Position numbers and translations under genes: made by a program
Origin: Lentzea aerocolonigenes
GTDB taxonomy: Bacteria; Actinomycetota; Actinomycetes; Mycobacteriales; Pseudonocardiaceae
Assembly (NCBI RefSeq): GCF_000974445.1
Contig: NZ_BBOJ01000028.1
Coordinates: 1 to 64,000, forward strand
Reading direction: 5' to 3'
DNA: 64,000 nt
Notes under the pieces: model-generated
What the model was told of the DNA's origin: nothing
The model's input: only the letters and a program-made list of their open reading frames with translations
Databases searched by the model: none
In this document: positions 7,319-51,799 of the stretch, in pieces
Position numbering within the stretch: the stretch's first letter is position 1
Layout of the letters: each line of letters starts with the position of its first letter

Positions 7319-8173
7319 TCAGAGCAGTGTGCGCAGCTCCCGCACCAGCTCCACGGGTGCTTCCTCGGCCATGTGGTGTCCACAGTCGATGGACCGAACC
7401 CGCACGTCACCCGCCCACTCGTCCCAGATTCCGGCCAGGTCCTCGTACAGCTCGCCGAGGTCGTCCTTGGCCGACCACAGGGCCAGCACCGGACAGGTGA
7501 TCCTGCGGCCGCGCGCCCGGTCCTCGTCGTCGTGTCCCCGGTCGACCTCCAGCCCGGCGCGGTAGTCGCCGCACATCGCGAGCACGGTCTCCGGGTCGTG
7601 GATGGCGCGCTGGTAGTCGGCCCAGTTCTCCACGCCCATCGCGAGTGGCGTGTCGTGGTAGCGCCCGCCGTACCAGAGGTCCGGGTCCTGGTTGATCATC
7701 GCGGCCGCGATCTCCTGCTGCGCCAGGAAGAACCAGTGGTACCAGGCCTGCGCGAACCGGGCGTCGCAGCGCCGCAGGTGGGCGCCGATCGGCAGCCCGT
7801 CCAGCACGGCCAGCGCGGTGACGCGGGCCGGGTGGTCGAGCGCGAGCCGGATCGCCGCGGCCGCACCCCGGTCGTGCCCGGCGACCGCGAACCGCTCGTG
7901 GCCGAGCGCGCTCATCAGGTTGACGAAGTCGCGTGCCATGGCGCGTTTCGAGTAGTCGCCGGGTTTGCTGGACTCGCCGTAGCCGCGCAAGTCCGGGCAC
8001 ACGACCGTGTGGTCCTCGGCGAGCAACGGCGCGACGCGGTGCCACGTCGTGTGGGTTCGAGGGTGGCCGTGCAGGAGGAGGACCGGTGGCCCTGCCCCAC
8101 CGATCCTCACTCGCAGCACGGCCTCGCCGACATCGATGCGGCGCAAGGTGAATCCCTCGAACACCTTCGTCAT
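7319..8173 (-). CDS. alpha/beta hydrolase, haloacetate-dehalogenase-like
   Basis: This 284-residue alpha/beta hydrolase has HGHPRT (oxyanion region, residue 35 on) and the nucleophile elbow GHDRG with Asp101, so it is of the dehalogenase/epoxide-hydrolase type and not an esterase. From memory of fluoroacetate dehalogenases, several active-site counterparts are present: Asp125 in AVLDGLP, His146-Trp147 in the halide pocket, Tyr204 in GDYRAG and His266. The second carboxylate-binding arginine after HDRG is replaced by alanine, so haloacetate may not be the substrate. It lies 54 bp upstream (genome left) of the pafB start on the same strand. Confidence 0.8.
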   Translation of the reverse strand: MTKVFEGFTLRRIDVGEAVLRVRIGGAGPPVLLLHGHPRTHTTWHRVAPLLAEDHTVVCPDLRGYGESSKPGDYSKRAMARDFVNLMSALGHERFAVAGHDRGAAAAIRLALDHPARVTALAVLDGLPIGAHLRRCDARFAQAWYHWFFLAQQEIAAAMINQDPDLWYGGRYHDTPLAMGVENWADYQRAIHDPETVLAMCGDYRAGLEVDRGHDDEDRARGRRITCPVLALWSAKDDLGELYEDLAGIWDEWAGDVRVRSIDCGHHMAEEAPVELVRELRTLL

Positions 8174-8285
8174 CTACCCGGCGGGGGCTACGAGGAAACG
8201 GCCGGGGCGACGACGATCTCAGAGTGTGGATCGTGCGGGAGCACGGTCGTGCCTGCCACGACGAAGCTCACGGGGTGCAACCGCA

Positions 8286-9284
8286 TCAGGTGCGACCGAC
8301 CCGTCCCTTCTCGCCGGCGGCCCAGCAGTTGAACCCGGCGCAGTCGACGGTGTCGAAGCTGCCCGTGTCCGCGACCTTCCAGTGCTCGCCGTCCTTGCTG
8401 ACGTCCGTGCCCGACGGCCCGACCGCCACCAGCCCGTTGCCGCGGTAGGCGATGCCGGAGCGGTACCCGACCGGGGCCTGCCCGCCTGCCTTCCAGCCGC
8501 GCGGGTCGTAGGTCGCGAACGCCGGCGTCGGGTCGGTCGGCTTCAGGTAGTCGCCGCCGATCGCGACGCCCCGCCACGGCGTCTTGAACGCGACCGCGAA
8601 CACCCCGGCCGCCGCGCCACTGGGCAACGGCACGTCGGAGGCCTTCCACGACCTGCCACCGTCACGCGACTCCAGCACCCGTGCCTTCGCGCCGCCGCCG
8701 GTCGCGATCCACGCGTGGTTGCCGCTCGTCGTCACGCACTGCCCGGACGCCGCGAACGCGAACTCGCCCGGCAACGCGTCCGGCATGCCCTTCGTGTCGT
8801 TGACGTGCCACGACCGCCCACCGTCCCACGTGCGCAACACGCGGAACTTGCCGTCAACGGGGTCACTCAGCGCGAGCCCGCGAAACCGGTCGAAGAACGC
8901 CACACAGTCGTAGAACGCCTTCGGGTCGTTGTTGCGGAACGACTCCTGCCAGGTCTTGCCGCCGTCGGACGTGCGGTAGATCCGTGATGCCTCCCCCTCG
9001 CCGATGGACAGCGCGACGGCGTTGCGCGCGTCGAACGCCTGGATGTCGCGGAAGTCCAGCGTCGCGGTGTCCGGCGGTGCCACGGACTCCCACGACCGGC
9101 CGCCGTTGGTCGTGCGCAGGACCGTGCCTTTCGAGCCGCTGACCCAGGCGACCTGGCCGTTGACCGCGGACAGGCCGCGCAGGCGTGCGTCCGTGCCGGT
9201 CGGTTTCAGCTCCCAGTAGGAGTCGGCCGAGGCGACTCCGGGGAGAACCAGGAAAGCGGCGAGTGCCGCCGCGATGATCCTCAT
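8286..9284 (-). CDS. secreted YCF48/BNR-repeat beta-propeller protein
   Basis: The 332-residue product starts with a signal peptide (MRIIAAALAAFLVLPGVASA, cleavage after about residue 20). It then carries repeated Asp-box/YCF48 motifs: TTNGGRSWE, TSDGGKTWQE, TWDGGRSWH and SRDGGRSWK, separated by about 50-60 residues, consistent with a beta-propeller like sialidase/HCF136-type proteins. There are four Cys in pairs (DCVAF, QCVTT, DCAGFNC). Such proteins are often annotated as oxidoreductases without proof. No catalytic residues can be assigned. It is divergent from the HSP90-like gene. Confidence 0.75.
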   Translation of the reverse strand: MRIIAAALAAFLVLPGVASADSYWELKPTGTDARLRGLSAVNGQVAWVSGSKGTVLRTTNGGRSWESVAPPDTATLDFRDIQAFDARNAVALSIGEGEASRIYRTSDGGKTWQESFRNNDPKAFYDCVAFFDRFRGLALSDPVDGKFRVLRTWDGGRSWHVNDTKGMPDALPGEFAFAASGQCVTTSGNHAWIATGGGAKARVLESRDGGRSWKASDVPLPSGAAAGVFAVAFKTPWRGVAIGGDYLKPTDPTPAFATYDPRGWKAGGQAPVGYRSGIAYRGNGLVAVGPSGTDVSKDGEHWKVADTGSFDTVDCAGFNCWAAGEKGRVGRT

Positions 9285-9405
9285 GCCGCCACTCTGGTCG
9301 AACGCGGTGATCGCTTCCTAGCCCCGATCGGACCGAGAGGGCTGAACGGGTGATCTGCTGCGTCGTTGCGGTACTTCCGTTCGGTCGCGGCCGAAGATCT
9401 CCGGC

Positions 9406-12400
9406 ATGCAGGAGAACGACCCGCGTCTGGTGATCGGGGCGACGGCCCCGCGACGGTCACTCGCGGAGGTCACCACACCGCACCCGTGGACGACGGCGGC
9501 ACGCGAGCACCTCGGGCCGTCGAACACGATGCGCAACGCCTGCGCGGCGGTGGTGTCGGAGCTGGCCGCGTCGTGGACGGGCCACCGCGCGGCCTCGGCG
9601 GGTGATCCCTGGCTCGACGAGGGGTTCGCGGACCGGTTCACGCTGCGACTGCGCTGGCTGACCCTCAGCGTGCTGCGGACGGACGAGTTGCGCCTGTCCG
9701 ACGCCGAGACCGCCCTGCTCGTCACGTTCCCCTACCTGCACCAGGCGTTCTGGGCGAAGCAGGCGGAGACCGTGCTGCGGGGCACCGATCCCGCGGTCGC
9801 GGCCTTCGCCTCCAGTGCCGAGCTGCCGAAGTTCAGCGCGTTCGCGGCCGGGTTCGGCGCCCTGCACCGCCGGGGCGTGCGCGCGCTCTCCTCGGGCGAC
9901 CCCGCCGCCACCGGCATCGGGTGGTGGCTCTTCCACCAGTGGCTCGTCCGGCAACCCGAGTGCTACGGCCAGGAGAACATCACCTCGCTCTTGCCGGCCT
10001 CGATCCCGCCGCCGTTGAACGCCGTGCTCACCGCGCCGCGGCTGACGGAACTGATGCGCGCCGTCCAGCTCGACCCCGCGTACCTGCGCCGCGTCGACCG
10101 TCCGGCGAGGCTGAGGCCGACGGTCCGCCTCCTCGGCGGCACCGAGCTGGAACAGGACCTGCGCGAGCAGCTGCTGGGCTACCTGCTCGTCGTCGCCCAC
10201 CGCACGGCCGTCGACCCCACCGTGCTGCCGCGCGTGATCGCCGACCACCTCGGCATCGACGACGGCATCACGCCCGGCGAGGTGCTGACGTCCATCCGCG
10301 AGGCGACGTGGGACGGCAACCGCACGCGGGTGCTCACCGCCACGTGCCAGCACCCCGCGACCGCGCTCGCCCTGCACGACCGGGCCGCGGCGGTCGACGC
10401 CGTCCTCACGGAGATCGTGCGCGCGGCCGAGGACTCCCCCACGCTCGCACCGCTGAGGGACATGCCCGTCCACGCCTCGGCCGACGGCACGAGCCCGACC
10501 ACCTCCGAGGGCCACCGGTTCCGCCTGGCGGACGACCAGATCCAGGCGTTGCTCATGGGCGAACAGCTCTACGGCACACCGGACCTCGCGATCCGCGAGC
10601 TCTACCAGAACGCGCTGGACGCCTGCCGCTACCGCCAGGCCAGGACCTCCTACCTGACCGCGATGGGCACCGCGTTGCCGCCCTGGCAGGGCACGATCAG
10701 CTTCCGGCAGGGCGTCGACGAGCAGGGCCGACCGTTCCTCGAGTGCTCCGACAACGGCATCGGCATGGGCGACCGCGAGCTCGTCGACGTGTTCGCCCAC
10801 GCCGGCGTGCGGTTCACCGACATGCCGGAGTACGTCGAGGAACAGGCCGACTGGGCCTCGGTGGGCATCGAGTCGTTCCCCAACAGCCGGTTCGGCATCG
10901 GGGTGCTGAGTTACTTCATGCTCGCCGACGAGATCACGGTGACGACGTGCCGCCTGAGCCGCTCCGGCCGTCCGGGGCAGCGGCTGGAGGTGCACATCGC
11001 GGGCCCGGACGCGCTGTTCCGCGTGCGCGACCTGGGGCCGGGCGAGGACGCGGGCACCGTCGTGCGCCTGCGGCTGCGGCCGACGGAGAACCCGGTGCGC
11101 TGCACCGAGCTGCTCCGCCGGATCCTGTGGGTGAGCGACTTCACGGTGACGTCGGACGACGAAAGCGGCCAGCAAACCTGGGAACCCCGGCGGCTGTCCG
11201 ACACCGCACCGGTGGGTGCGGAAGACGCGTTCCGCGACGGCGCCCTCCGCTCCGCGAAAAAGCTCGCTCCCGCGAGCGGGGGCAGAGTGTGGTGGTGCGA
11301 CACCGAGGGAGCGATCCTCGCGGACGGGATCTGGGCGGGCATCACCACGTTCGGTGCCATCGTCAATCTGTCCGGCAGTGACCAGCCGCGGCTCACCGTG
11401 GACCGCAACGAGATCATCGACTTCGACAACGGGCGGGTCGACGAACTCATGTGGTCCGCCGTGCCGACACTGATCAACTCACCGGACACCCCGCTGTCCC
11501 ACGCCTGGCTCTCGGACCTCGCCGAGACGATGCCGCGACTCGCCGACGAGATCTGCGAGCGCGCGATCGAGGCCCGGCACCGCCCCTGGCGAGTCGGCAG
11601 CGTGGAAGGGCCCATAGAGATCGTGGGCTGCTATCCACCCGACGCCGATGCTCTGGCGCAGGACGATGAACTCGAGGCTGTCGAGTGGAGCGCCGCAGTC
11701 AGCAGGTGGCGACTGGCGGCGTGGCTTCGCGCCGGAGCAGGACCGATGTCCCCAGCAGTCGTGCCGGCTCGTCCGTCAGACGAGATCCTGCTCGAACACA
11801 GCGAGAGCACGGGATTCCCGGGCTATGTGCTGGAGGTGGCCGTGCGGGCGCACCGTTCACCCGCTGAGGTCGTGGCGCGACTCGCCGAGCTCGGACTTCC
11901 AGTCCCCGATCCGCGGTCGGTGCCCGCTGAGATCATCGAGTCCGACCGGGTCCTGCTGGCCGACCAGAACGAAGCGTCCGGGCGCTACCTCCCGTGGGAC
12001 GAGCCTGTGCCGCACGCTCACGTGCTGTTGGCCGCGGTCATGACAGGTATGACCCCCTCCGCCGTCGTCGCAAGGCTAATCGAACTCGGGTTTGACACCT
12101 CAAGGATCGGCAGGCTGCCCGCCGAAGTCGACGTCAGCGACCAGCTCCTGCTGAAGACTCGGGCGGCACCCGCGCCCCTCCCGGTCGATGAGATGGTCCC
12201 GGTCGCGCACGTCATGGTCGTGGCGGCCGATGACCACCGGACACCTGCCGAGATCGCGGCGAGGCTGGCCGAGCTCGGTTACGCCACGCCTGACCCTGGG
12301 AGCTTGCCAGCGCGCGTTGAGCCCGATGACGCGCGGACCTTCACCCTGAAGCAGGGCGAATGGACGTCGTACGTCCAGAACCCCGTCCCGGCACTGCACG

Positions 12401-13491
12401 TCGTTCGCGTCGCTCTTGCGACGAACAACCCACCGGCACACGTCGCCGCGCGGCTCGCGGCAGCGGGGTTCCAAGTCTCGGGGACGGTTCCCGAGCAGCT
12501 CACACCGCTCGACAGAAAGATCGCCCGGAGACGCCACCAGTCGGCCGACACCGTGCGTGACCTGTACACCGACACGGTCGTCACCACCGGACAAGTGGTG
12601 AGCATGGCGCTGGACCTGGACCAGCCACCGATGGCAATCGCGCGAAGGCTGGCCGAGTTCGGCTTCACCACGCCCTCGCACGACTGTCTCCCGGACGACG
12701 TGGACAGCACAGACAGGCAGCTGCTCAGCGCTTCGATCGGTGCGGAAGACCATTACTACGCCCAGGAGCCCGAATGGCTGCACACAGGCCAGTTTCTGAG
12801 CCTTCCTCACATCCTGATCGCCGCCACCAAGATGACGCGCAGTCCGCTCTCGATTGCCCGCAGGTTCGCCGAGTTCGGCTTCGGCACCCCGCCCGACCAC
12901 CTGCTGGACATCGACGTGCGGTTGGAGGACCTGCTGCTGCTAAGCCTCGACCTGGACGGAAAACCGCCGTGGCTGACCGACGAGCACCTGGTCGTGCCGC
13001 TGGGTCACGTGCTCGCCGCAGCTGCCAGGCTGGCCAGACCGCCCGCGGAGGTCGCCGCGAGACTGAGCGAGCTCGGACTGCGCCCCGAGGACGCTCCGCT
13101 GCCGGAGAAGGTCGAGCGGTACGACAGCAAGCTGCTCGCCTGGGTGCGGCGGAGCTACAGGTCGGGCGAGGCCCGTTGGATCGGACTGGCGGCGCCGGCC
13201 GACGCGCTGCACCTGCTGGTCACCGCCGGGAACACCGGGATGACACCTCACGAGGTGGCCAGGCGGCTGTCGGCTCTGGGCGTTCCCGTCGTGCGGCCGC
13301 GCCGGCCGTTGTCAGTCGATCGGACCGACATGGTTTTGCTGAGCCAGAACCTGGACGGCGATGCTCCGTACCGCGATCTGGCCGCGGACTTCCCGCGTGC
13401 CGACGTCATGCGTGCGGTGTCCGCCACGAAGCTGCTGCCCGGTGAGGTGCTCGGGCGGCTCACCCGGCTCGGCATCACCGTCGGCGAATGA
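9406..13491 (+). CDS. HSP90-like GHKL ATPase with nine C-terminal tandem repeats
   Basis: This 1361-residue protein has an unassigned N-terminal region (1-365, probably mostly helical). An HSP90-type ATPase domain follows with intact motifs: E398/N402/D405 in ELYQNALDA, DNGIGM 449-454 and RFGIGVLSYFM 495-505. The middle segment contains PRLTVDRNEI. From about Asp792 to the end there are about nine units of 55-72 residues starting at D792, D847, D912, D975, D1036, D1103, D1175, D1240 and D1308. Each has a pattern like aHVL-AA---PaEVAaRLaELG and an LP- -V- -D-LLL boundary. The repeats look like winged-helix-type modules associated with HSP90-like ATPases in predicted conflict systems (family knowledge, from memory). 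ATG 9406 has no strong ribosome site. No partner effector gene is adjacent. Confidence 0.8.
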   Translation: MQENDPRLVIGATAPRRSLAEVTTPHPWTTAAREHLGPSNTMRNACAAVVSELAASWTGHRAASAGDPWLDEGFADRFTLRLRWLTLSVLRTDELRLSDAETALLVTFPYLHQAFWAKQAETVLRGTDPAVAAFASSAELPKFSAFAAGFGALHRRGVRALSSGDPAATGIGWWLFHQWLVRQPECYGQENITSLLPASIPPPLNAVLTAPRLTELMRAVQLDPAYLRRVDRPARLRPTVRLLGGTELEQDLREQLLGYLLVVAHRTAVDPTVLPRVIADHLGIDDGITPGEVLTSIREATWDGNRTRVLTATCQHPATALALHDRAAAVDAVLTEIVRAAEDSPTLAPLRDMPVHASADGTSPTTSEGHRFRLADDQIQALLMGEQLYGTPDLAIRELYQNALDACRYRQARTSYLTAMGTALPPWQGTISFRQGVDEQGRPFLECSDNGIGMGDRELVDVFAHAGVRFTDMPEYVEEQADWASVGIESFPNSRFGIGVLSYFMLADEITVTTCRLSRSGRPGQRLEVHIAGPDALFRVRDLGPGEDAGTVVRLRLRPTENPVRCTELLRRILWVSDFTVTSDDESGQQTWEPRRLSDTAPVGAEDAFRDGALRSAKKLAPASGGRVWWCDTEGAILADGIWAGITTFGAIVNLSGSDQPRLTVDRNEIIDFDNGRVDELMWSAVPTLINSPDTPLSHAWLSDLAETMPRLADEICERAIEARHRPWRVGSVEGPIEIVGCYPPDADALAQDDELEAVEWSAAVSRWRLAAWLRAGAGPMSPAVVPARPSDEILLEHSESTGFPGYVLEVAVRAHRSPAEVVARLAELGLPVPDPRSVPAEIIESDRVLLADQNEASGRYLPWDEPVPHAHVLLAAVMTGMTPSAVVARLIELGFDTSRIGRLPAEVDVSDQLLLKTRAAPAPLPVDEMVPVAHVMVVAADDHRTPAEIAARLAELGYATPDPGSLPARVEPDDARTFTLKQGEWTSYVQNPVPALHVVRVALATNNPPAHVAARLAAAGFQVSGTVPEQLTPLDRKIARRRHQSADTVRDLYTDTVVTTGQVVSMALDLDQPPMAIARRLAEFGFTTPSHDCLPDDVDSTDRQLLSASIGAEDHYYAQEPEWLHTGQFLSLPHILIAATKMTRSPLSIARRFAEFGFGTPPDHLLDIDVRLEDLLLLSLDLDGKPPWLTDEHLVVPLGHVLAAAARLARPPAEVAARLSELGLRPEDAPLPEKVERYDSKLLAWVRRSYRSGEARWIGLAAPADALHLLVTAGNTGMTPHEVARRLSALGVPVVRPRRPLSVDRTDMVLLSQNLDGDAPYRDLAADFPRADVMRAVSATKLLPGEVLGRLTRLGITVGE
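11779..13488 (+). repeat. coding tandem repeats, about nine units of 55-72 codons
   Basis: These are the diverged repeats at the 3' end of the HSP90-like gene. Unit starts (Asp codons) fall at nt 11779, 11944, 12139, 12328, 12511, 12712, 12928, 13123 and 13327. DNA identity between units is low while the protein pattern is kept, which points to old duplications under selection. Confidence 0.75.
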
Positions 13492-40407: not shown

Positions 40408-41477
40408 TGATCGCGAAACTGCACCTCTACCTGGTCGACGTGGCGGCCGCGCTGGTGATCTGGATCCTCGTCGCCTACGCGATGCTCGAGCCCCACCAGC
40501 CCCCGTCGCCCTGGGTCGCGGTGCCGTTGGCCGCACTGGTCGCGGTCCCCGTCGCCGTCCGCCGGTTGTGGCCGGAGATCGCGCTGGGCGTGACCACGGC
40601 CGCGATGGTGGTGGCGGTGATCAGCCGGGTGCTTCCCGTGCACGCGCTCGGCGCCACGGTGGCCGCGGTCTGCTTCGTGCTCTACACGGTGGCAGTCGAA
40701 CGCGACCGCACGTGGTCGCTGGCGGCGCTCGTGGTCGCCGTCATCGCGACCACGGGGATCTCCGGTGGCGAGCCCGAGAGCTTGCTGGTCGCCTTCGCCG
40801 CGCTGGGTTCGGTGTGGGCCATCGGGTACACGACCAGGCTGCGGCGGTCGTTCCTGGAGCGCGAGACGACCCAGCGGGCCGAGCAGGCGCTGGCCGACGA
40901 ACGCCTCCGCATCGCCCGCGAACTGCACGACGTGGTGGCGCACAACCTGTCCCTGATCGCGGTGCAGGCCGCCAACGCCGCACACGTGCGCTCACCCGCG
41001 CACGCCTACGAAGCCCTGACGGTGATCTCCGAGACGAGCCGCGCCGCGTTGACGGAGATGCGCAGCCTCCTCGGCGTCCTGCGCTCCGACGCCGACCTCG
41101 CCCCCTCCCCCGGCCTGGACGGCCTCGCCGAACTGGCCGACCGCGCGTCACTCGCGGGCGTGCGCGTCTCGTTGGAAGTGCGGGGCGACTCCGCTGTGCC
41201 GGAGGGGATCGGCCTGTCGGTGTACCGGATCGTGCAGGAGGCTCTGACCAACGTCGTGAAGCACGCCGCGCCCGCGTCGTGCACGGTGGTGGTGGACGTG
41301 ACGCCGTCGTCGGTGCGGGTCGAGGTGACCGACGACGGACCTGGGGTGAAGGAGCTGGGAGTGGGACACGGCCTGATCGGCATGCGCGAACGCGTGGCGG
41401 TTTACGGCGGCACGTTCAGCGCGGGCCCTGGTGAGACCGGCGGTTTCCGGGTCGTCGCGGAGCTGCCGCACCGATGA
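40407..41477 (+). CDS. sensor histidine kinase (HisKA_3 type)
   Basis: This 356-residue kinase has five N-terminal membrane helices, a phospho-accepting His174 in IARELHDVVAHNLSLIAVQ, and HATPase motifs QEALTNVVKHA, DDGPG and GLIGMRERV. GTG 40407 is chosen over an upstream GTG at 40350 because of promoter spacing and because the protein then begins just before the first helix. It overlaps the response regulator gene by 4 bp and is divergent from the ABC-2 exporter. Confidence 0.9.
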   Translation: MIAKLHLYLVDVAAALVIWILVAYAMLEPHQPPSPWVAVPLAALVAVPVAVRRLWPEIALGVTTAAMVVAVISRVLPVHALGATVAAVCFVLYTVAVERDRTWSLAALVVAVIATTGISGGEPESLLVAFAALGSVWAIGYTTRLRRSFLERETTQRAEQALADERLRIARELHDVVAHNLSLIAVQAANAAHVRSPAHAYEALTVISETSRAALTEMRSLLGVLRSDADLAPSPGLDGLAELADRASLAGVRVSLEVRGDSAVPEGIGLSVYRIVQEALTNVVKHAAPASCTVVVDVTPSSVRVEVTDDGPGVKELGVGHGLIGMRERVAVYGGTFSAGPGETGGFRVVAELPHR

Positions 41478-42103
41478 CGAGCGTGCTGATCGTCGACGAC
41501 CAGGCGTTGCTGCGCGCGAGCTTCCGCCTGCTGGTCGACAGCGAACCGGACCTGACCGTGGTGGGCGAGGCGGGCACGGGCTCGGAAGCCGTGTCGCTCG
41601 CTTCTTCTTTGGCACCGGACGTCGTGCTGATGGACATCCGCATGCCGGAGATGGACGGCATCGAGGCCACCCGTCTCATGAACGGCCCTCGCGTGCTGGT
41701 GCTGACGACGTTCAACCTGGACGAGTACGTGTTCGGTGCGTTGAGGGCAGGCGCCTCGGGCTTCCTGCTCAAGGACACGCCCCCTGGCGAGCTGCTGGCG
41801 GCGATCAGGGTGGTGGCGTCCGGCGAGTCGTTGCTGTCGCCGCCGGTGACGCGCCGGCTGATCTCCGAGTTCGTCCGGCAGCCCGCGTCGATGGTGGTGT
41901 CGGGGCTGGAACGGCTGACGGAGCGGGAGAAGGAGGTCCTGCTGCTGGTCGCTCGGGGGCTGTCCAACTCGGAGATCATGGCGGAGCTGCACGTCAGCAC
42001 CGGGACGGTGAAGACGCACATCGGGAACCTGCTGTCCAAACTGCACGCACGCGACCGTGCACAGCTGGTTATTGCGGCCTACGAGTCGGGCCTGGTCGGT
42101 TAG
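41474..42103 (+). CDS. NarL/LuxR-type response regulator
   Basis: This 209-residue regulator has receiver residues VDD (7-9), Asp54 (LMDIRMPEMDG) and Lys (LLKDTPPGE), then a GerE HTH (LTEREKEVLLLVARGLSN, STGTVKTHIGNLL). ATGA overlap couples it to the kinase. The divergent ABC exporter is its likely target (context inference). Confidence 0.94.
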   Translation: MTSVLIVDDQALLRASFRLLVDSEPDLTVVGEAGTGSEAVSLASSLAPDVVLMDIRMPEMDGIEATRLMNGPRVLVLTTFNLDEYVFGALRAGASGFLLKDTPPGELLAAIRVVASGESLLSPPVTRRLISEFVRQPASMVVSGLERLTEREKEVLLLVARGLSNSEIMAELHVSTGTVKTHIGNLLSKLHARDRAQLVIAAYESGLVG

Positions 42104-42113
42104 CCTGCCCCGG
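42101..42113 (+). promoter_or_regulatory. probable leaderless promoter of the MoxR operon
   Basis: TAGCCT (42101-42106), overlapping the response-regulator stop codon, lies 6 nt before GTG 42113. Confidence 0.4.
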
Positions 42114-43207
42114 TGTTCTCTGGGGATGTCACCGCCGTGCGCGAGGCCGTCGCCGCCGCGCAGTCCGGTTTGGTCGATCGTGAGCTGATCGCCGAGGTCG
42201 TGGTGCTGTGCGCCGTCGCGGGCGAGCACGCTCTCGTCGTCGGCCCGCCGGGCACGGCCAAGTCGGCGGCGGTGCGGACGATCGCGCGGCAGCTGGGCGG
42301 CACGTACTTCGAGTACGTGCTGGGGCGCTTCACCGAGCCCAACGAGATCTTCGGGCCGGTGGACCTGCGCAGGCTCGCCGACGGAGTGGTCGAGATCGAG
42401 ACCGCCGGCATGCTGCCCGAGGCGGAGATCGCGTTCCTCGACGAGGTGTTCCTGGGGTCCACGGCCATCCTCAACACGTTGCTGGGCCTGTTGAACGAGC
42501 GGGTGTTCCGGCGCGGCGCCACGCGGCTGGAGAGCCCGCTGCGGGTGTGCGTGGGCGCCACGAACACCCTGCCGGACGACCCGGTGCTGGCGGCGTTCGC
42601 GGACCGGTTCCTGGTGCGGCTGTTCATCGACCCGGTGGCGGACGCGCTGCTCGAGGAACTGCTGGAGACGGCGTGGGCGCCCGTGCAGAGCCCCGCGGCA
42701 CACGTGCTGCCGTCCGTCGACCGGCTGGCCGAGCAGGCACGCGCGGTGGACCTGCGACCGGTGGTGCAGGCGGCCGCCACGGCGGTGCGCAGGCTGCGGC
42801 ACGCCGGTGTGGTGCTGAGCGACCGGCGGGTGGTGCGGGCGCAGCGGCTGGTCGCGGCGGCGGCCGTGCTGGACGGCCGGACCGAGGCGTCGGCGGAGGA
42901 CCTGTGGGTGCTGCCGCTCATCGCGCCCAGCAGGGAGGCGCAGGCTCTGGCGAGGGACGTCCTCGGTGACCTGATCGACCGGGCGCGCAACGCGAGCCTG
43001 GTGCACGCGGCGGAGGAGTTCTCCCGCGGGCCGCAGGCGCGGGCGGAACGGCTGGCGCTCACCGCGGAGAAGGTGCTCGGCGGTGAGCTGGACCGGCTGC
43101 GCGTGGAGGCGACGCTGCGGGAGATCGACGCCGGTTTCGCGGCGGACGACCTGCCCGCGGTGCTGCGCGACGCCCGCACGCGTCTCATCACCGCGCTCCA
43201 GCCGTGA
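42113..43207 (+). CDS. MoxR-family AAA+ ATPase
   Basis: This 364-residue RavA/MoxR-type ATPase has Walker A GPPGTAKS (44-51), Walker B IAFLDE (106-111), sensor 1 at VGATNTLPDD and an arginine finger region near FADRFLVRL. MoxR proteins act as chaperone-like remodellers with vWA partners. It is the first gene of a four-gene operon with 4-bp overlaps throughout, and is the motor of a likely MoxR-vWA-beta-propeller ternary system. Confidence 0.92.
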   Translation: MFSGDVTAVREAVAAAQSGLVDRELIAEVVVLCAVAGEHALVVGPPGTAKSAAVRTIARQLGGTYFEYVLGRFTEPNEIFGPVDLRRLADGVVEIETAGMLPEAEIAFLDEVFLGSTAILNTLLGLLNERVFRRGATRLESPLRVCVGATNTLPDDPVLAAFADRFLVRLFIDPVADALLEELLETAWAPVQSPAAHVLPSVDRLAEQARAVDLRPVVQAAATAVRRLRHAGVVLSDRRVVRAQRLVAAAAVLDGRTEASAEDLWVLPLIAPSREAQALARDVLGDLIDRARNASLVHAAEEFSRGPQARAERLALTAEKVLGGELDRLRVEATLREIDAGFAADDLPAVLRDARTRLITALQP

Positions 43208-43554
43208 GACCGCTGACCTGGGCGCGCCGCGAGCCGCCGCTGGAAGCCGCTGCCGTGGCGGGCGGTGCCACATTGCGTGCCGCGACGGTGCGACGGCTGC
43301 GGGCCGGTGCCCGGCTGCGGGTGGCGTTCGGTCCTGAGTGGACGCTCGTGGTCGGTGACGACCTGCCGTGGGCCGACGGCGTCACCTACCTCGGGTGGGA
43401 CGACGGACTACTGGTGCCGACGACCCTCGCGCCGTCGACACCGCCGGGGCTCTTGCGGCACTCGCTGCCGGACGACGCGCTCGTGGTGCTGCCGGGTGCG
43501 GTGCTGACGGGCCCCGCTCCGAGGCGCACGGCGAACCCGGAGCTGCTCGCATGA
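43204..43554 (+). CDS. small bpX-type protein of the MoxR ternary operon
   Basis: This 116-residue protein overlaps both neighbours by four bases (GTGA, ATGA). It shows short beta-strand-like segments with WTLVVGDDLPWADGVTYLGWDDGLLVPTT in parts and a C-terminal VVLPG. Its position between the MoxR ATPase and the vWA/propeller gene matches the small bpX0/bpX1-type component of MoxR-vWA-beta-propeller systems (family knowledge). No catalytic motif is seen. Confidence 0.6.
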   Translation: MRPLTWARREPPLEAAAVAGGATLRAATVRRLRAGARLRVAFGPEWTLVVGDDLPWADGVTYLGWDDGLLVPTTLAPSTPPGLLRHSLPDDALVVLPGAVLTGPAPRRTANPELLA

Positions 43555-45068
43555 CACTGCCGGACGCACTCCGCCCCTGGGCCACCACGCTGTCCACGAT
43601 GGACCTCGACCTCGCCACCGCGCTGGGCCCGCTGCTCAGGGACCTGGACGAGTTCATCGACGCGGCGACCACGACGCACCCGCACCGCGGCGAGCCCGAC
43701 GGGTTCGGCGGCATCGGGCTGAAGGGCGAACCGGAACGCATTCTGGTCTCCGAGTGGGCGCTGGCCCGGCACTTCCCGCACGAGTTCCTCCGCAAGGCCG
43801 CCACCGGTGAGCTCCTCCACACCACCCCGGAGTTCGTCGAACCGCACCGGAGAGGTCAGGCGGCGGTCCTCGTCGACGCGGGCCCCGACCAGCTGGGCGC
43901 CGCGCGGCTGGTGCAGCTCGCGGCGCTGATCGTGCTGCAGCGCAGGGAACCCGGCCTGCTGCTCGGCGTTCTCGGCGATCGGCCGGGCACGTGGCATCCC
44001 GCCGGCATCACGGGGCTCCTCGAGGCCCGCCGCACCACGCGGCCCGACCAGAGCGACGTCACGAAGTGGGCGGACACCGTCGACGACCTGTGGCTGCTGA
44101 GCAGTCCGCGGCTGACCGCCCGGCGCTGCCTCACCACCACCGAGTCGGCGTGGGACGAACGGGGTGCCACCGCCGTGCGCGTCGAGCTCAACGGACTCTC
44201 CACCGAGCTGACGTTGCCCGGCAGGCGGCACGGCGTCAGGTTGTTGCGCGGCAACCTGCGCACGCCCCCGGAGGAGGAGAAGCGCGCGGGCGTGCTGCGG
44301 TTCCCGTCGTTCCCCGGCGCCGAGAAGGTGTTGCTGGCGCGCGGCAGCACCGATCGCGACCTGGTGACGTTGCAGGTCCTCAGCGGCATCCAGCGCCACC
44401 ACCGGCTGCCGGGACGAGTGCTCGCGGCCGCCCAGGTGCACAACCGGCTCGTCACCCTCGTCGAGCGGGACGGTGTCGTCCGTGCGCACGTCATCGGCAA
44501 CCAGCTCAAGCGGTTCTACCGGCTGGCGGTGACCGCGGAGGAGCTCGGCATCGACCCCGAGCAGGTCGCGGCCACCGGACTCGCGCCGCTGCACGTGTCC
44601 GGCAACACGATGTTGTGCCGGTGGAACGACAACTGGTGGGTCCTCCAGGCAGGTGAGCCGCCCCGCGTCAGCGAGTTCGCGGTCGTCGCGCCCGGCAACC
44701 ACCACACGGACGAGCCCCGCACGTCGCGAACGCCCGTGCTGCTCGGTCCTCCTCCGTTGCGGGCCACGTCGCACGACGGAACCCGATGGCGGTTCGAGCG
44801 TCCGCCGGACATCCTGCTCCCGGACGGAGCCAGGCCGCTCGGCCTGCACCTGTTCGAGGACAACAGGCCCGGGATCGTCTTCCAGGAAGGCCTGATCGTG
44901 CGCGTGCAGACCGCCGCCCGCACCCGCACGCTCACCGCCTGGTCCGGCGCGCCCGCCGTGGTGCACCCGATGCAGCCGTGGGTCGCCGTGCCGCGTGACG
45001 ACGGCCGCGTCGAGGTGGGTCACCTCGTCACCGGGAAACGGATCGCGACGATGCGAGGTGACGCGTGA
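43551..45068 (+). CDS. degenerate vWA-like plus beta-propeller protein of the MoxR system
   Basis: The 505-residue protein has a region at about 104-190 resembling a von Willebrand A domain (AAVLVDAGPDQLG then a long helix and LLLGVLGDRPG), but the metal site D-x-S-x-S is replaced by Asp109-Ala-Gly-Pro-Asp113, so metal-ion binding is doubtful. The C-terminal 300 residues hold short repeated beta units (for example WWVLQAGEPP, WVAVPRDDGRVEVGHL), consistent with a propeller (bpX2-like). ATG 43551 overlaps the preceding stop. Confidence 0.65.
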   Translation: MTLPDALRPWATTLSTMDLDLATALGPLLRDLDEFIDAATTTHPHRGEPDGFGGIGLKGEPERILVSEWALARHFPHEFLRKAATGELLHTTPEFVEPHRRGQAAVLVDAGPDQLGAARLVQLAALIVLQRREPGLLLGVLGDRPGTWHPAGITGLLEARRTTRPDQSDVTKWADTVDDLWLLSSPRLTARRCLTTTESAWDERGATAVRVELNGLSTELTLPGRRHGVRLLRGNLRTPPEEEKRAGVLRFPSFPGAEKVLLARGSTDRDLVTLQVLSGIQRHHRLPGRVLAAAQVHNRLVTLVERDGVVRAHVIGNQLKRFYRLAVTAEELGIDPEQVAATGLAPLHVSGNTMLCRWNDNWWVLQAGEPPRVSEFAVVAPGNHHTDEPRTSRTPVLLGPPPLRATSHDGTRWRFERPPDILLPDGARPLGLHLFEDNRPGIVFQEGLIVRVQTAARTRTLTAWSGAPAVVHPMQPWVAVPRDDGRVEVGHLVTGKRIATMRGDA

Positions 45069-47443
45069 CCACGTTCCGCGGCACCGTCACCGCCAGGGCG
45101 TTCGTCATCGACGTCGGCGTGATCGGCGAGCAGGAGGCCCGCACGCGGGTGCTCGACCTGTGGCAGCCGGGCGCACGCATCCACGCGCTGCCAACGGGTT
45201 CGTGGCTGGTCGTGCTCGCCGAGCCGGTGGAGGTCCGCGCCGAACGAGCACCCGGCCTGCCGCTCACCGAGGTGCCGGAAGGCCTGGAGCCACTCGACTG
45301 TGCACTGTGGACGGACACGAGCGGCCTCACCCGGCACGAGCTCACCCCCGCGGATCTCGCCCCGGCGCCGGAACCCGTCGAGTCAGCCGTCCCCGAGAGA
45401 CCTCAGCTGCGGGTCCGCGGCGGCATCGGCACGCCGTCCAAGCACGCCGAGAAACTCCTCCGGCACGATGGCGGTACACCGTTCCGCGCGCTCCTCATCG
45501 TCGTCGGCGCGCTCAGCGTTCCGGTTCTGGTGCTCGTCGCGCTCTCCGCGGGCAACATCAAGCCGATCCTGGTCATCGTGTTCATCGCGACCATCGTGGC
45601 CATGCGGACCGCGAGTGGGGGTACCGCGGGAACAGCTGACCGGGCACCGGGCCGGGAACCGGGGAACCTCTGGGTGCGGCTGGTCATGCGCACGCCGTTG
45701 CGGGCGCTCGTGCGGTCGCGGCACGACAGGTACCTGCGCCGGCTCACCGAGCAGTTCGAGCGCAAGGACTGGCACAACGCGCTGCGCGACGCCGTCGGGA
45801 TCGGCGGCGACTCGAGCAGCGGCCGGCTCACCACGAAGACTCCTTCGAGGCGCACGGGCGCGGTGCGGCCCACCAACGTCCTCACCCCCGGAGCCGGACC
45901 GCTGTACGGGCCCGACGTGCACCGGCACCTCAGGGGGCTCTACGAGGCCGCCGCGCGGGACCTCGAACGGCTGGGACGCCACGACGAGGCCGCGTTCGTG
46001 CACGCGGACCTGCTCGGCGATCCCGCCGCGGCGGTCGCGATGTTCGAGCGGCTCGGCAGGTTCACCGACGCGGCCGAGCTCGCGGAAGGCCGGAACCTCG
46101 ACGCGGACCTGGTCGTGCGGCTCTGGTGGCGTGCCGGGAACAGGACGCGGGCGATCGACGTGGCACGGGCGCGCGGCGCGTTCGCCACCGCCATCGCCCG
46201 CCTGTCCGCCGAGGACGGGCGAGAGCTGCGCGCGGAGTGGGTGCGCGAGCGGCAGGACGCGGGCGACCACCTGGGCGCGGTCGCGGCGGCCTGGCCCGAC
46301 GAGACCACCCGCCACTTCGCGGTGCCCTGCATCCAGGCGGGCATGGCGCTCGGCGGACCGGTGAGCAGCGCCTTGTTCGCCCACCTGGCCGTCGGCTGGC
46401 CCACCCCCGCCACGCACAGCACGGCGCTCGCGTTGCTGAACAGCGACGACCCTGAGCTCGCCGCGGCCAGGAAGCACTTCGTCGACGCCTGGCTCGCTCT
46501 GAACGGCGACGACCGCGAACTCGGCAGTGCGGCCACGCGGGCGTTCGTGCGCGACGGCACGACCGTGCCACCGGCGTTGAAGAAGGCGGCCGACCCGTTG
46601 CTGGCCGCCGACCTGCCCAAGGCGCCGAAGCTCCGCCGGACCGTGCCGGACCTCGAGGTCCCGGTGCTACCGGGGCAGCTCCTGGTGCACGACGCGGTGG
46701 CGGTGCGCGGCGGTGCGGTCCTGGTGGCGCTCGGCGACCAGGGCACCCGGCTCGTCACCGGCGACGGACGCACGCGGGCGCACTGGGACGTGCCGTCGCA
46801 CCAGGTCGTCATGGCCGACCACGGCGGATCAGCGCTGCTGGCCGGTGTGCGCGGCTCGGTCAGCGAGGTGCACCACGTCGACCTGGCCTCCCGCAGGGTC
46901 CGGCACTGGACCACGCTGTCGCACCGCACGTTCCTCCGGTCGTTCGACGGCGGCATCGCGGTCGTGACGGGACCGGACGGGCTGGAGTTCCTGGACGTGC
47001 GCAGGAACCCGCCGACCGTCGTGTGGCGGGAGCTCGACCGTGACGCGTCGATCCTCGGCGTCGCGCGGAACGCCCGCAGCCTCGCGGTGGTGTTCGCCGA
47101 GCCGGGCGGTCAGGTGATCGAGCGGTGGCGGTGGGACCTGCCGGATCTCACGCTGCGCCAGCGCGTGCGGGACCCGGACCTGACCCTGCCGCACCGCGGG
47201 ACGCTGCTGCCGTCCGGCGAGTACTGCGCCGGTGTCGCGGACGGCGACGCCTGGTACGTGCAGCAGGACGACTGCGTGGAGATCCGCACCAAGGAACGTG
47301 TCGTGGCGCGCACGACCGCGGTGGTGGACGTGATCCGCTGGCACGCGGGGATCGTCACGCTGATCGACCACGACAACCGCGTGCTGGCCGTGGACGCGGC
47401 CACCGGCGCGCAGGTCGCGGCGTTCGCTCTCCAGGCCTGGTAG
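45065..47443 (+). CDS. membrane-anchored bpX6-like protein of the MoxR system
   Basis: This 792-residue protein has an N-terminal bpX6-like domain (about 1-110, FRGTVTARAFVIDVGVIGEQ), two membrane helices (about 141-161 and 166-181), a helical TPR-like region (about 275-500, repeats such as LERLGRHDEAAFVHADLLGD) and a C-terminal beta-propeller (about 545-792). It would tether the complex to the membrane. GTG 45065 overlaps the preceding stop. Family placement rests on domain order and operon context. Confidence 0.68.
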   Translation: MTTFRGTVTARAFVIDVGVIGEQEARTRVLDLWQPGARIHALPTGSWLVVLAEPVEVRAERAPGLPLTEVPEGLEPLDCALWTDTSGLTRHELTPADLAPAPEPVESAVPERPQLRVRGGIGTPSKHAEKLLRHDGGTPFRALLIVVGALSVPVLVLVALSAGNIKPILVIVFIATIVAMRTASGGTAGTADRAPGREPGNLWVRLVMRTPLRALVRSRHDRYLRRLTEQFERKDWHNALRDAVGIGGDSSSGRLTTKTPSRRTGAVRPTNVLTPGAGPLYGPDVHRHLRGLYEAAARDLERLGRHDEAAFVHADLLGDPAAAVAMFERLGRFTDAAELAEGRNLDADLVVRLWWRAGNRTRAIDVARARGAFATAIARLSAEDGRELRAEWVRERQDAGDHLGAVAAAWPDETTRHFAVPCIQAGMALGGPVSSALFAHLAVGWPTPATHSTALALLNSDDPELAAARKHFVDAWLALNGDDRELGSAATRAFVRDGTTVPPALKKAADPLLAADLPKAPKLRRTVPDLEVPVLPGQLLVHDAVAVRGGAVLVALGDQGTRLVTGDGRTRAHWDVPSHQVVMADHGGSALLAGVRGSVSEVHHVDLASRRVRHWTTLSHRTFLRSFDGGIAVVTGPDGLEFLDVRRNPPTVVWRELDRDASILGVARNARSLAVVFAEPGGQVIERWRWDLPDLTLRQRVRDPDLTLPHRGTLLPSGEYCAGVADGDAWYVQQDDCVEIRTKERVVARTTAVVDVIRWHAGIVTLIDHDNRVLAVDAATGAQVAAFALQAW

Positions 47444-47450
47444 GAAACGG

Positions 47451-47485
47451 CGAACCGCCCCGGCCGAAGCGACCGGGGCGGTTCG
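47451..47485. terminator. bidirectional terminator
   Basis: CGAACCGCCCCGG (47451-47463) pairs perfectly with CCGGGGCGGTTCG (47473-47485) with a 9-nt loop, between the convergent MoxR operon and mpa. Confidence 0.85.
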
Positions 47486-47496
47486 GGCGAACGGTC

Positions 47497-49293
47497 TTAC
47501 AGGTACGTGCCGGTGTTCGTGGCCGTGTCGATCGCGCGGCCCGTCTCCTGGTTCTTCCCGGTGACGAGCGTGCGGATGTAGACGATCCGCTCGCCCTTCT
47601 TGCCCGAGATGCGTGCCCAGTCGTCCGGGTTCGTCGTGTTCGGCAGGTCCTCGTTCTCGGCGAACTCGTCGACGATGGCGGCCTGCAGGTGCCGGACCGA
47701 GAGGCCGGGCTGCTTGGTGTCGAGCAGCGACTTGATCGCCGCCTTCTTGGCCCTGTCGACGATGTTCTGGATCATCGCGCCGGAGTTGAAGTCCCGGAAG
47801 TACAGGACCTCCTTGTCACCGTTGGCGTAGGTGACCTCCAGGAAGCGGTTCTCCTCGGACTCCTCGTACATGCGCTCGACGGTGTGCTGAACCATGCCCT
47901 CGATGCAGGCCTTCGGGTCTCCGCCGAACTCGGCGAGGTCGTCGGCGTGCAGCGGGAGGTTCGCCGTCAGGTACTTGTTGAAGATGTCCTTCGCGCCCTC
48001 GGCGTCCGGTCGCTCGATCTTGATCTTCACGTCGAGGCGGCCGGGGCGGAGGATCGCCGGGTCGATCATGTCCTCGCGGTTGGAGGCGCCGATGACGATG
48101 ACGTTCTCCAGGCCCTCGACGCCGTCGATCTCGCTGAGGAGCTGGGGAACGATCGTCGTCTCGACGTCGGACGACACGCCGGAACCGCGGGTGCGGAAGA
48201 TCGAGTCCATCTCGTCGAAGAACACGATCACCGGGGTGCCCTCTGACGCCTTCTCACGAGCCCGCTGGAAGATCAGGCGGATGTGCCGCTCGGTCTCACC
48301 GACGAACTTGTTGAGGAGCTCGGGGCCCTTGATGTTGAGGAAGTAGGACTTGGCCTGCTTGTCGGTCTCGCCGCGGATCTCCCGCACCTTCTTGGCCAGG
48401 GAGTTCGCCACCGCCTTGGCGATGAGCGTCTTGCCGCAGCCGGGAGGGCCGTAGAGCAGCACGCCCTTGGGCGGGCGCAGCTCGTACTCGCGGAACAGGT
48501 CGGCGTGCAGGAACGGCAGCTCCACGGCGTCGCGGATCTGCTCGATCTGCCGGGACAGGCCGCCGATGTCGCTGTAGTCGATGTCCGGGACCTCCTCGAG
48601 CACGAGGTCCTCGACCTCGGCCTTGGGGACCCGCTCGTAGGCGAAACCCGCCTTCGAGTCGACCAGCAGCGAGTCGCCGGGCTTGAGCGGCGAGTCGAGC
48701 AGCGGCTGGGCGAGCCAGACCACCCTCTCCTCGTCCGCGTGACCGACGACCAGCGCGCGGGCGATCTGGTCCTCTCCCTCTTCGGAGAGCACCTCCCGCA
48801 GTGCGCAGACCTCACCCGACCGCTCGAAACCGCCGGCCTCGACGACCGTCAGCGCCTCGTTGAGGCGGACCGACTGCCCGAACGACAGCTTCTCCGGCTC
48901 GACCGCGGGGGACACGGCGACCCGCATCCTCCGGCCGGACGTGAAGACGTCCACCGTCCCGTCGTCGAAACGCGCCATGAAGACGCCGTACCCGCTGGGC
49001 GGCTGCGCCAGCCGGTCGACCTCCTCACGCAGCGCGAGCAGCTGGCTTCGTGCTTCGCGGAGGGTGTCTATGAGCTTCGTGTTTCGCTCGGTCAGTTGGC
49101 TGACCCGCTCCGTCGCTTCCGCCAGCCGCTGCTCGAGCAACCGGACGTGGCGCGGGGACTCGGTCAGCTTGCGGCGCAACGACGCGATCTCGTCCTCGAG
49201 GAACCTGATCTGCGCGTTCAGCTCTGCAGAATTGTTGCCCTGGTTCAGCTCGCCACCCTCATCGGGTTGGCTGCCGGGATGACCGTGCTGCAT
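47497..49293 (-). CDS. mpa: proteasome-associated AAA+ ATPase Mpa/ARC
   Basis: Mpa recognises pupylated proteins, unfolds them and feeds them to the 20S core. The 598-residue protein has an N-terminal coiled coil (about 24-97), two OB folds (about 98-235), an AAA+ domain with Walker A GPPGCGKT (282-289) and Walker B FFDEMD (358-363), and ends in GTYL, the Tyr-Leu docking tail that opens the proteasome gate. It is 16 kb from dop, unlike the usual adjacent arrangement. Confidence 0.97.
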
Positions 49294-50008
49294 GTCGGCA
49301 CCCTCCTCCCGTGTTCGTACCGATTACGGTACCGGCGATCACCGACAAAATCGTGTACTCACAACATCATCTTCGCTCGTGTGACGCAACGGTCCGGCCT
49401 CCAACAGAGGTCAACTGCTCCATCTCGGTGTCCGGTGGAACCACCCACCCGCTACGGTGCGTCCCAGAAACCCCGGCCCGCGCATCGCTCTGCGACACGC
49501 CAGCCGACCTGCGAGAAGTCCGAGGAGAGGGTCATGGGAGCACCTGGGCGGCCGCCCGGTCCCCACGCTCCGCGACCACCCTCGGACGACCGCGAACACG
49601 CCTGGTGCGGCCCGCGGCCCGGCGACGGGCGCCAACCCGCCGTCGTCCCACCAGGTGGACGATCGGCTGCTCCGATCGGTGGTGACACACCGCAACCCAC
49701 CCCGTTCGTGCCCGTCGGAGGACCCGCGCGAGCGAGGCTCCGGTGCGACCGGAGGGCGTGCGGCCAACCGGGTGGTCGTGCCGACGCGACCGGCGCACCA
49801 CTCCGACAGCGCAGTGCATCGCGCTCGATTTCCGGTGGAGGTGCCGCAATCGTTATCAGACACGGCCCTGGCGCGGCCAGCCGGCAACAGCACAAGGTGT
49901 GCATAACCACTCGTGCGTGTCGATAGACCCCATTCGGCCGCGCGCCCGACCACGAAGTACCAGAATGTCCAAGCGATAGATCACCTCATCCGCATCGGGG
50001 GAGTTTCG
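49294..50008. other. 715-bp region between mpa and the repeat-protein gene
   Basis: The part nearest mpa should hold its promoter. Beyond a weakly supported small ORF (49534-49926), nothing recognisable was found. Confidence 0.5.
49534..49926 (+). CDS. doubtful 130-residue Pro/Gly/Arg-rich ORF
   Basis: ATG 49534 has AGGAG 6 nt before it, and the frame runs 130 codons. The protein starts MGAPGRPPGPHAPRPP and is rich in Pro, Gly and Arg with no recognisable domain. It could be a disordered protein, a decayed gene or chance in GC-rich DNA. Confidence 0.22.
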   Translation: MGAPGRPPGPHAPRPPSDDREHAWCGPRPGDGRQPAVVPPGGRSAAPIGGDTPQPTPFVPVGGPARARLRCDRRACGQPGGRADATGAPLRQRSASRSISGGGAAIVIRHGPGAASRQQHKVCITTRACR

Positions 50009-50857
50009 ATGACGTACCCGCCGCAGCAGCCCGGTCCCTACGGGCAGCAGCCGCAGCCCGGTGGGCCGTACGGGCAGCAGCCGCCGCAGCAGCCGGGTCA
50101 CGGCCAGCAGCCGCAACCCGGTTACGGCCAGCAGCCGCCGCCGGGGTACGGCCAGCAGCCGAATCCGTACGGCCAGCCGCAGCAGGACCCGTTCGGCCAG
50201 CAGGGGCCGCAGAGCGGCGGTTTCCCGCAGCAGGGTTACGGCCAGCCCCAGCCCGGCTACGGCCAGCCCGGCCCCTACGGCCAGCAGCCCGGCTACGGCG
50301 GGTTCGGCGGTCCCCCGCCTCCCAAGAAGAGCAACACCGGCCTGATCATCGGTGTCGTCATCGGCGTGCTGGTGCTCGTCGGCGGTGGCATCACGGCGGC
50401 TGTCATCTACTCCGGCAACAGCTCCAGCAGCAACTCGTCGTCGTCCAACTCGGGCAACGGCTCGGACTCGGGCAACAGCGGCGGCGGTGACGACGCGGCC
50501 GAGGTCAAGAAGGTCGCCGAGGAGTACTACGCGGCCGGCACCTCCGGCAACACCAGCAAGGCCAAGTCGATGGCCTGCAAGGAGGTCGTCGACGAGGCCG
50601 AGCAGGCCGAGAAGAAGCTCGACAGCCTCACGCCGGAGCAGCGCAAGCAGGCCGAGGAACTGGCGAAGACGCTGAAGACCAGCGTGAAGGTCAACGACGT
50701 GGCCGTCAGCGGCAACGAGGCGACGGTCAAGATCAACCTCTCCATGAGCATCGGTGGCAAGAACTCGACCGTCGACACCGACGTGAAGTTCAAGAAGATC
50801 TCGGGCACCTGGAAGTTCTGCACGCTGCAGAAGGACATCAAGATCCCGACGAAGTAG
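50009..50857 (+). CDS. Gly/Pro/Gln-rich membrane-anchored protein, copy 1
   Basis: This 282-residue protein has an N-terminal region of PGYGQQP-type repeats (about 1-110), one membrane helix (TGLIIGVVIGVLVLVGGGI, about 113-131), a Ser/Asn/Gly linker and an exported C-terminal domain with a conserved Cys pair (MACKE and KFCTL). GGGGGAG lies 5 nt before ATG 50009. It is a close paralogue of the next gene in length, order of parts and leader sequence. The function is unknown. Confidence 0.75.
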   Translation: MTYPPQQPGPYGQQPQPGGPYGQQPPQQPGHGQQPQPGYGQQPPPGYGQQPNPYGQPQQDPFGQQGPQSGGFPQQGYGQPQPGYGQPGPYGQQPGYGGFGGPPPPKKSNTGLIIGVVIGVLVLVGGGITAAVIYSGNSSSSNSSSSNSGNGSDSGNSGGGDDAAEVKKVAEEYYAAGTSGNTSKAKSMACKEVVDEAEQAEKKLDSLTPEQRKQAEELAKTLKTSVKVNDVAVSGNEATVKINLSMSIGGKNSTVDTDVKFKKISGTWKFCTLQKDIKIPTK

Positions 50858-50950: not shown

Positions 50951-51799
50951 ATGACCTACCCGCCTCAGCAGCCCGGGCAGCAGCCCGGTTACGGCCAGCA
51001 GCCGCCGCCGGGGTACGGACAGCAACCGGGCTACGGACAGCCGCCGGGACAGCCGGGGTACGGACAGCAGCCGGGTCCGTACGGCCAGCCGCAGCAGGAC
51101 CCGTTCGGCCAGCAGGGACCCCAGAGCGGCGGGTTCCCTCCGCAGGGACCGCAGAGCGGCGGTTTCCCGCAGCAGGGTTACGGCCAGCCCCAGCCCGGCT
51201 ACGGCCAGCCCGGTCCCTACGGCCAGCAGCCCGGCTACGGCGGGTTCGGCGGTCCCCCGCCGAAGAAGAGCAAGACCGGTCTGATCATCGGTGTCGTCAT
51301 CGGCGTGCTGGTGCTCGTCGGCGGTGGCATCACGGCCGCCGTCCTGCTCACCGGCAACAGCTCCAAGAGCAACGACTCGGCGTCGACGAACACGAACTCC
51401 CAGCCGACGAACGGCAGCACGAAGCCGACCACACCGTCGTCGAAGAGCTCGTCGAGCGGCGGCGACTCGGACGCGAAGGAAGTCGCCGAGAAGTTCACCG
51501 AGATCGTCCTGAAGGGCGTTCGGGCGGGCAAAACCGACCCGAACGACGTCAAGTCCCTCGTGTGCTCGGCGGAGTTCCCCAAGCTGAAGAACCAGTCCGG
51601 TCAGGCCCAGCCGACCGCGGCGGCCACCGTGGCGGACGTCAAGACCTCGGGCAGCAGCGGCACGTTCACGCAGAAGCTCACCGGGCTCGTCGATCCGTCC
51701 AAGCCGGGTCAGACCACCTCGGGCAGCATCATCTACAAGCTGTCCAAGGAAGGTGGCGACTGGAAGGTCTGCGGCATCGACAAGATCGAGTCCAACTGA
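50951..51799 (+). CDS. Gly/Pro/Gln-rich membrane-anchored protein, copy 2
   Basis: It has the same 282-residue length and architecture as the preceding gene: PGYGQQP repeats (about 1-108), an almost identical membrane helix, a Thr/Ser/Lys linker and a C-terminal domain with Cys in LVCSAE and KVCGID. The N-terminal halves are very similar and the exported halves have diverged, indicating tandem duplication followed by specialisation. Confidence 0.75.
   Translation: MTYPPQQPGQQPGYGQQPPPGYGQQPGYGQPPGQPGYGQQPGPYGQPQQDPFGQQGPQSGGFPPQGPQSGGFPQQGYGQPQPGYGQPGPYGQQPGYGGFGGPPPKKSKTGLIIGVVIGVLVLVGGGITAAVLLTGNSSKSNDSASTNTNSQPTNGSTKPTTPSSKSSSSGGDSDAKEVAEKFTEIVLKGVRAGKTDPNDVKSLVCSAEFPKLKNQSGQAQPTAAATVADVKTSGSSGTFTQKLTGLVDPSKPGQTTSGSIIYKLSKEGGDWKVCGIDKIESN

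Follow-up and report, generated by a model that had tools for sequence, protein, structure and literature searches.

Four co-directional genes on the forward strand of Lentzea aerocolonigenes, at 42113-47443 of the window (the whole 64,000-nucleotide stretch of DNA analysed here), appear to constitute a beta-propeller MoxR-vWA ternary system in its bpX5/bpX6 form, most likely acting as an ATP-driven remodeller with an adaptor and a scaffold. We put the probability of this reading as a whole at roughly 0.64. Membership in the beta-propeller MoxR-vWA ternary systems is itself near certain, because both the Pfam matches and the gene order point to it, and a role in biological conflict, which is a published proposal and a predicted one, is plausible. 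What is new is an actinomycete clade, a clean 5.34-kb cassette in four of 24 Lentzea genomes, and a bpX6 linker that carries predicted membrane helices in only seven of 14 sequences.

Four overlapping genes

The genes of the cassette and the features bordering it are as follows.
41474-42103, + strand: response regulator, left flank, 9 bp before the MoxR start; outside the system
42113-43207, + strand: bpMoxR AAA+ ATPase, 364 aa; PF20030, E 1.7e-79; P-loop GPPGTAKS; nearest solved structure RavA
43204-43554, + strand: bpX5 protein, 116 aa; PF19921, E 5.6e-9, 36.2 bits vs a cut-off of 27
43551-45068, + strand: vWA-propeller component, 505 aa; predicted helical region 1-96, alpha/beta core at about 104-233 with a degenerate MIDAS DxGPxxxG (D109), beta-propeller 246-503
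45065-47443, + strand: bpX6 protein, 792 aa; PF19922, E 1.5e-9 at residues 4-73; further described by a structure model and hydropathy
47451-47485, no strand assigned: hairpin between convergent genes, a probable two-way terminator; RNA fold z -2.0, with 5 of 200 shuffles folding as well; also found at the short empty sites
47497-49293, - strand: proteasome ATPase (ARC/Mpa), right flank, with proteasomal ATPase OB domains; outside the system

In the ORF calls, each gene overlaps the next by exactly 4 bp (43204-43207, 43551-43554, and 45065-45068), which bears out the layout given in the sequence-only reading. Its naming of the first gene as a MoxR ATPase was likewise borne out, with a bpMoxR score of 266 bits vs a cut-off of 27; this model also fires in 12 of 14 control genomes, and the six other matches in the Lentzea host genome reach 56 bits at most. 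The second gene, noted only as a small strand-rich protein, could be assigned to bpX5 above the Pfam cut-off. The ORF of the vWA gene is open upstream as far as a GTG at 43368, but a start there was rejected, the alignments of homologues beginning only at the ATG at 43551. Not every genome has the bpX5/vWA overlap: of three sibling Lentzea sequences, two have the aligned vWA start about 115 bp downstream of the bpX5 stop.

The four genes are not chance ORFs, given the third-position GC of ORFs 3 and 4 (0.89-0.93), the dN/dS ratios, and the recurrence of the four-gene order. The same crude coding caller favoured an antisense ORF over the MoxR gene, a call that homology overrides. Mean dN/dS among the four Lentzea carriers was 0.15 for MoxR, 0.20 for bpX5, 0.30 for the vWA gene, and 0.51 for bpX6, and that of seven flanking genes was 0.08-0.31 (one measured in three genomes only). 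We scanned 3861 ORFs of 80 fetched loci, which were the best 80 of at least 273 relatives. The four-gene order recurred in 13 of the 15 loci L016-L030, the exceptions being L022, with an internal deletion, and L026, which ends at a contig edge, and it is also carried by an Embleya megaplasmid. The order is thus conserved in other actinomycetes, and this, together with bpX5 and bpX6 scoring above their Pfam cut-offs, supports the earlier proposal that it fits the MoxR-vWA-bpX ternary systems. At L022, from Planosporangium thailandense, MoxR is fused in frame to the propeller end of bpX6 (7938-9422), through either an internal deletion or an error of assembly; the four genes are all present in P. 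flavigriseum.

Relatives and component architecture

The MoxR tree (34 rows) divided into two deep clades, the first containing Actinomycetota, Pseudomonadota-labelled MAGs, and one Acidobacteriota, and the second Bacteroidota, one Planctomycetota, and one Limnohabitans. Eight actinomycete rows and the Lentzea window formed a single clade (97/100), with the Actinomycetota MAG L027 outside it. Among the matches listed, the nearest named loci were L. kentuckyensis and L. alba (91% MoxR identity), and the named actinomycete carriers were Planosporangium, Actinocrispum, Streptomyces smaragdinus, Catellatospora, and Yinghuangia. A Methylobacterium plasmid had MoxR, vWA, and bpX6 matches with the bpX5 match absent, and a phage collection yielded only partial MoxR matches. 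The two deep groups of the tree carry different partner proteins: bpX5 is encoded in 13 of the 15 loci L016-L030 but turned up in none of the 65 loci L031-L095, and in one Chryseobacterium and one Planctomycetota locus Pfam recognised bpX0 and bpX1 within the vWA component and bpX3 within the third. Among 396 phylum genomes, bpX5 exceeded its cut-off only in the host itself; a sub-cut-off match in G226 (L143) was set aside, as no comparable operon was present there.

These systems were defined by Kaur et al. 2020, who proposed a conflict role for them (PMC7159879); their paper assigns them mostly only to Bacteroidetes, Planctomycetes, Verrucomicrobia, and Proteobacteria, and describes a GXXXTAKS P-loop as frequent. 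The Lentzea cassette resembles the published systems in its bpMoxR with GXXXTAKS, its vWA-like component with a C-terminal propeller, its third protein made up of an N-domain, a membrane segment, a repeat solenoid, and a propeller, and its lack of a conventional effector. It differs in its actinomycete host, in its MIDAS strand (DxGPxxxG vs DxS(L/I)xNWG), and in having bpX5 and bpX6 where the two other-clade loci tested have bpX0, bpX1, and bpX3. The P-loop of the window, GPPGTAKS, is a GXXXTAKS variant, and TAKS occurs in 80 of the 81 MoxR homologues of the fetched loci. The motif is not exclusive to the system, being shared by two other MoxR-like genes of the same genome (L006 and L007, on C55 and C54), which have G.PGTAKS P-loops and VWA_CoxE genes within about 9 kb. 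A published counterpart in layout comes from Pseudomonas syringae clade 2b-a, for which a table lists ravA, bpX5, 6ND4, and bpX6 in the region of genome plasticity RGP_32 (PMC9677677). It is alike in its four genes, their identical listed order, and its location in a plasticity region, and differs in belonging to another phylum and in consisting of rows of a table in a paper whose main text lacks the words propeller and conflict. A literature search, for which subscription papers were largely out of reach, found no experimental study of this system.

The third protein had been read as a degenerate vWA domain plus a propeller. The propeller stood: the model (15 sequences; mean pLDDT 79, pTM 0.58) comprises a helical N-terminus, an alpha/beta stretch at 104-233, and a propeller at 246-503, and structure searches also returned a C-terminal beta-propeller, with 6ND4 among the matches. 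These searches tested propellers only and list only propeller matches, so they are silent on the vWA fold. The vWA part proved less firmly grounded than assumed, in that the protein has no Pfam match and Pfam VWA is absent from 15 of 15 members; what points to it is an N-terminal match to the gene in the same position of other loci and the alpha/beta core of the model. Specifically, a profile of residues 1-240 from 15 bpX5/6-type rows picked up 62 of the 65 loci L031-L095 at E <=1e-3 (61 at <=1e-5; best 8e-11), and the ten matches listed are the gene directly behind MoxR in second-clade, mostly Bacteroidota, loci. The strongest matching extends from about residue 20 to 130-237 and therefore includes the MIDAS strand. 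Residues 95-240 alone matched in none of the 65 second-clade loci, and the propeller alone gave no match at E <=1e-3. The reverse profile scored 12 near ORFs at E 1.4e-5 to 0.04. E-values of <=1e-46 between the clades were overstated, as they came from an iterated profile already holding those sequences, and are replaced by the values for the 1-240 profile.

On the MIDAS strand, D109, G111, P112, and G116 were invariant in the 15 rows, and the other clade mostly had DxS(L/I)xNWG, by a search pattern that missed two of 13 near rows and 11 of 62 far rows. A comparison of profiles with VWA_CoxE gave P 0.009-0.015 when Bacteroidota members were included; with the 15 bpX5/6-type rows by themselves P was 0.56, and a MoxR negative control gave 0.18-0.81. 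The comparison places the DxGPxxxG strand, weakly, on the MIDAS strand. We regard a vWA fold of the third protein as likely, short of settled, from these profiles and the model. In two other Lentzea, stand-alone proteins resembling residues 203-504, the propeller half (L141, 9561-10841; L142, 8994-10220), were rejected as cassette members, as no MoxR match lies nearby.

The AF2 model of bpX6 (14 sequences; mean pLDDT 78, pTM 0.45) suggests an N-domain followed by a low-confidence linker, with two hydrophobic helices at about 141-182, a confidently modelled solenoid at 201-515, and a propeller at about 540-790; at this pTM, the placement of the domains is uncertain. The earlier description of a two-helix membrane propeller protein is backed by hydropathy (segments 142-160 and 162-180) and by model helices at 141-160 and 168-182, where the confidence is below 50. 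By hydropathy, linker membrane segments occur in seven of the 14 bpX6 sequences, three of them from Lentzea, including the window; L020 was left out of this count because its hydrophobic segment lies inside the solenoid. The linker varies in length from 48 to 316 residues, and, leaving out the truncated end, conservation within Lentzea is lowest at residues 101-200, a pattern that relaxed constraint would explain as well as diversification. Low identity at residues 701-750 is spurious, as a contig end truncates one of the genes. The solenoid profile gave matches at E <=1e-3 in 59 of the 65 second-clade loci (best 7e-20), either in the third component or in a separate neighbour, and the propeller profile matched in none of the 65 at the same threshold. 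The bpX6 protein of Yinghuangia (L030, 11454-15344; 1297 aa) has two hydrophobic segments separated by about 160 residues that contain repeated motifs. The membrane segment is part of the published argument for membrane-proximal action, and it is missing in half of the 14 bpX6 sequences.

The cassette slot in Lentzea

All 24 Lentzea genomes have the proteasome ATPase gene, and four have the full-length vWA gene. In all four carriers, the operon lies behind the response regulator, and in three the proteasome ATPase gene follows on the same contig; in G110, the contig ends inside bpX6. The slot was readable in 18 of the 20 non-carriers (G106 is at a contig edge and G108 was left out), and in all 18 the response regulator adjoins the proteasome ATPase gene, with only the hairpin between them in five (58-63 bp) and 201-3232 bp of other sequence in 13. 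Eight cargo proteins from four of these 13 gave GntR, CAAX-protease-like, DUF4407, DUF5808, and DUF6368 matches, three having no Pfam match. When the flanks of the window were joined (42103 to 47444), they aligned to the five short sites at 109-122 identical columns of 146-153, indicating a clean gain of 5340 bp in the carriers or a clean loss elsewhere. The 5.34-kb cassette between the response-regulator stop codon and the shared terminator is patchily present in Lentzea and sits cleanly in the slot. The sequence-only reading had counted absence of the operon from related genomes with MoxR alone as evidence against it; half of this was found, in that 20 of the 24 Lentzea lack the full-length vWA gene, and in the five short slots the whole cassette is cleanly absent.

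Full-length vWA homologues were found in five of 390 family genomes (two of 46 genera), with four partial ones, and in one of 394 class genomes, the host itself, counts that may be low as only three candidates per genome were scored. Insertion linked to tRNA genes is not supported, with one tRNA gene in seven loci. Beyond the proteasome ATPase gene, the window holds two neighbouring genes whose proteins have similar proline/glutamine-rich starts (49913-50857 and 50951-51799); across other Lentzea, differing numbers of matches to the first lie next to the proteasome ATPase gene. Elsewhere in the window, a 1361-aa protein (9406-13491, + strand) combines an iHD-CE domain with nine wHTH-HSP90_Na-assoc stretches and could be part of a different predicted conflict system; the gene beside it is presumably a Pup ligase.

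Predicted function and alternatives

As a remodeller, the cassette would work through an ATP-fuelled MoxR ring that tugs the vWA adaptor or re-seats it, in the manner attributed to RavA-ViaA and NorQ-NorD. The two propellers and the solenoid would scaffold a client complex, in Lentzea one at the membrane, with bpX5 as a small coupling subunit, and a trigger would lead to the complex being assembled or taken apart. By sequence and model, bpX6 is a solenoid-propeller protein whose membrane anchor is optional. As a tentative and rather doubtful extension, the linker between the bpX6 domain and the solenoid may be an exchangeable targeting module, whose swap directs the ATPase-adaptor engine to either membrane or cytosol and thereby changes its clients, the whole cassette being swapped in and out of fixed slots.

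A maturation chaperone for a membrane or respiratory enzyme, like RavA-ViaA or NorQ-NorD and in place of a conflict system, is a possible alternative that we hold less probable than the main reading. For it, RavA is the nearest solved structure to the Lentzea ATPase by sequence (E 3e-37), the bpX6 protein has hydrophobic helices in Lentzea, and no effector domain was found by Pfam in the four proteins. Against it, the full-length vWA gene is missing in 385 of the 390 family genomes as well as 20 of the 24 Lentzea, and no client gene is common to the flanks of six actinomycete loci, which share kinase-regulator pairs and two weaker matches; a flavin-oxidoreductase-like gene, 71% identical, is common to the flanks of the two Streptomycetaceae. 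In both pairs, as here, a MoxR ATPase adjoins a vWA-type partner. The Lentzea ATPase falls below the NCBIfam RavA equivalog cut-off (142 bits vs 681), and, to our knowledge, the two pairs have no propellers, solenoid, or bpX proteins.

Other searches bear on the surroundings of the cassette. VMAP families, suggested as a check in the sequence-only reading, were absent from the Pfam matches of the four proteins at E <=10, and PADLOC-DB 2.0.0 gave only mad8 (E 0.0017, ATPase residues 36-65) and one bpX5 match (E 0.059), neither counting as a component match. A PADLOC scan of 63 hand-picked genes of the window and five actinomycete loci, made without a control set, matched 13 families at E <=1e-10, each in one member; a defence-island context was rejected on this ground, and no known defence system was seen beside the cassette in these genes. 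Nine of the 63 were scanned singly, and here the IetA/TRIP13 match was the proteasome ATPase, the Cas4-like match a PD-(D/E)XK gene, and the WYL match a regulator; mad3, AriA, and C3a156 matches were also among the 63.

Decay of an element under weak constraint would account for the rapid evolution of bpX6, the fastest evolving of the four genes, and for the P. thailandense fusion, but it is very unlikely given dN/dS of 0.15-0.51 in all four genes and frames that stay open over the sequenced extent of the genes in the Lentzea carriers. A proteasome-linked module, suggested by the direct abutment of the cassette on the proteasome ATPase gene in Lentzea, is scarcely credible and was rejected, as the link is not conserved: other actinomycete loci have no proteasome ATPase match in their gene lists, and the same Lentzea slot holds unrelated cargo in other species. 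In its favour, two Pup-ligase family genes were among the 63 scanned proteins, and we take them by their starts to be the window's.

The reading as a ternary remodeller concerns a system with only a predicted function, and the carriers and empty sites within one genus provide a natural plus/minus comparison for it, which makes the conflict hypothesis testable by deletion or transfer.
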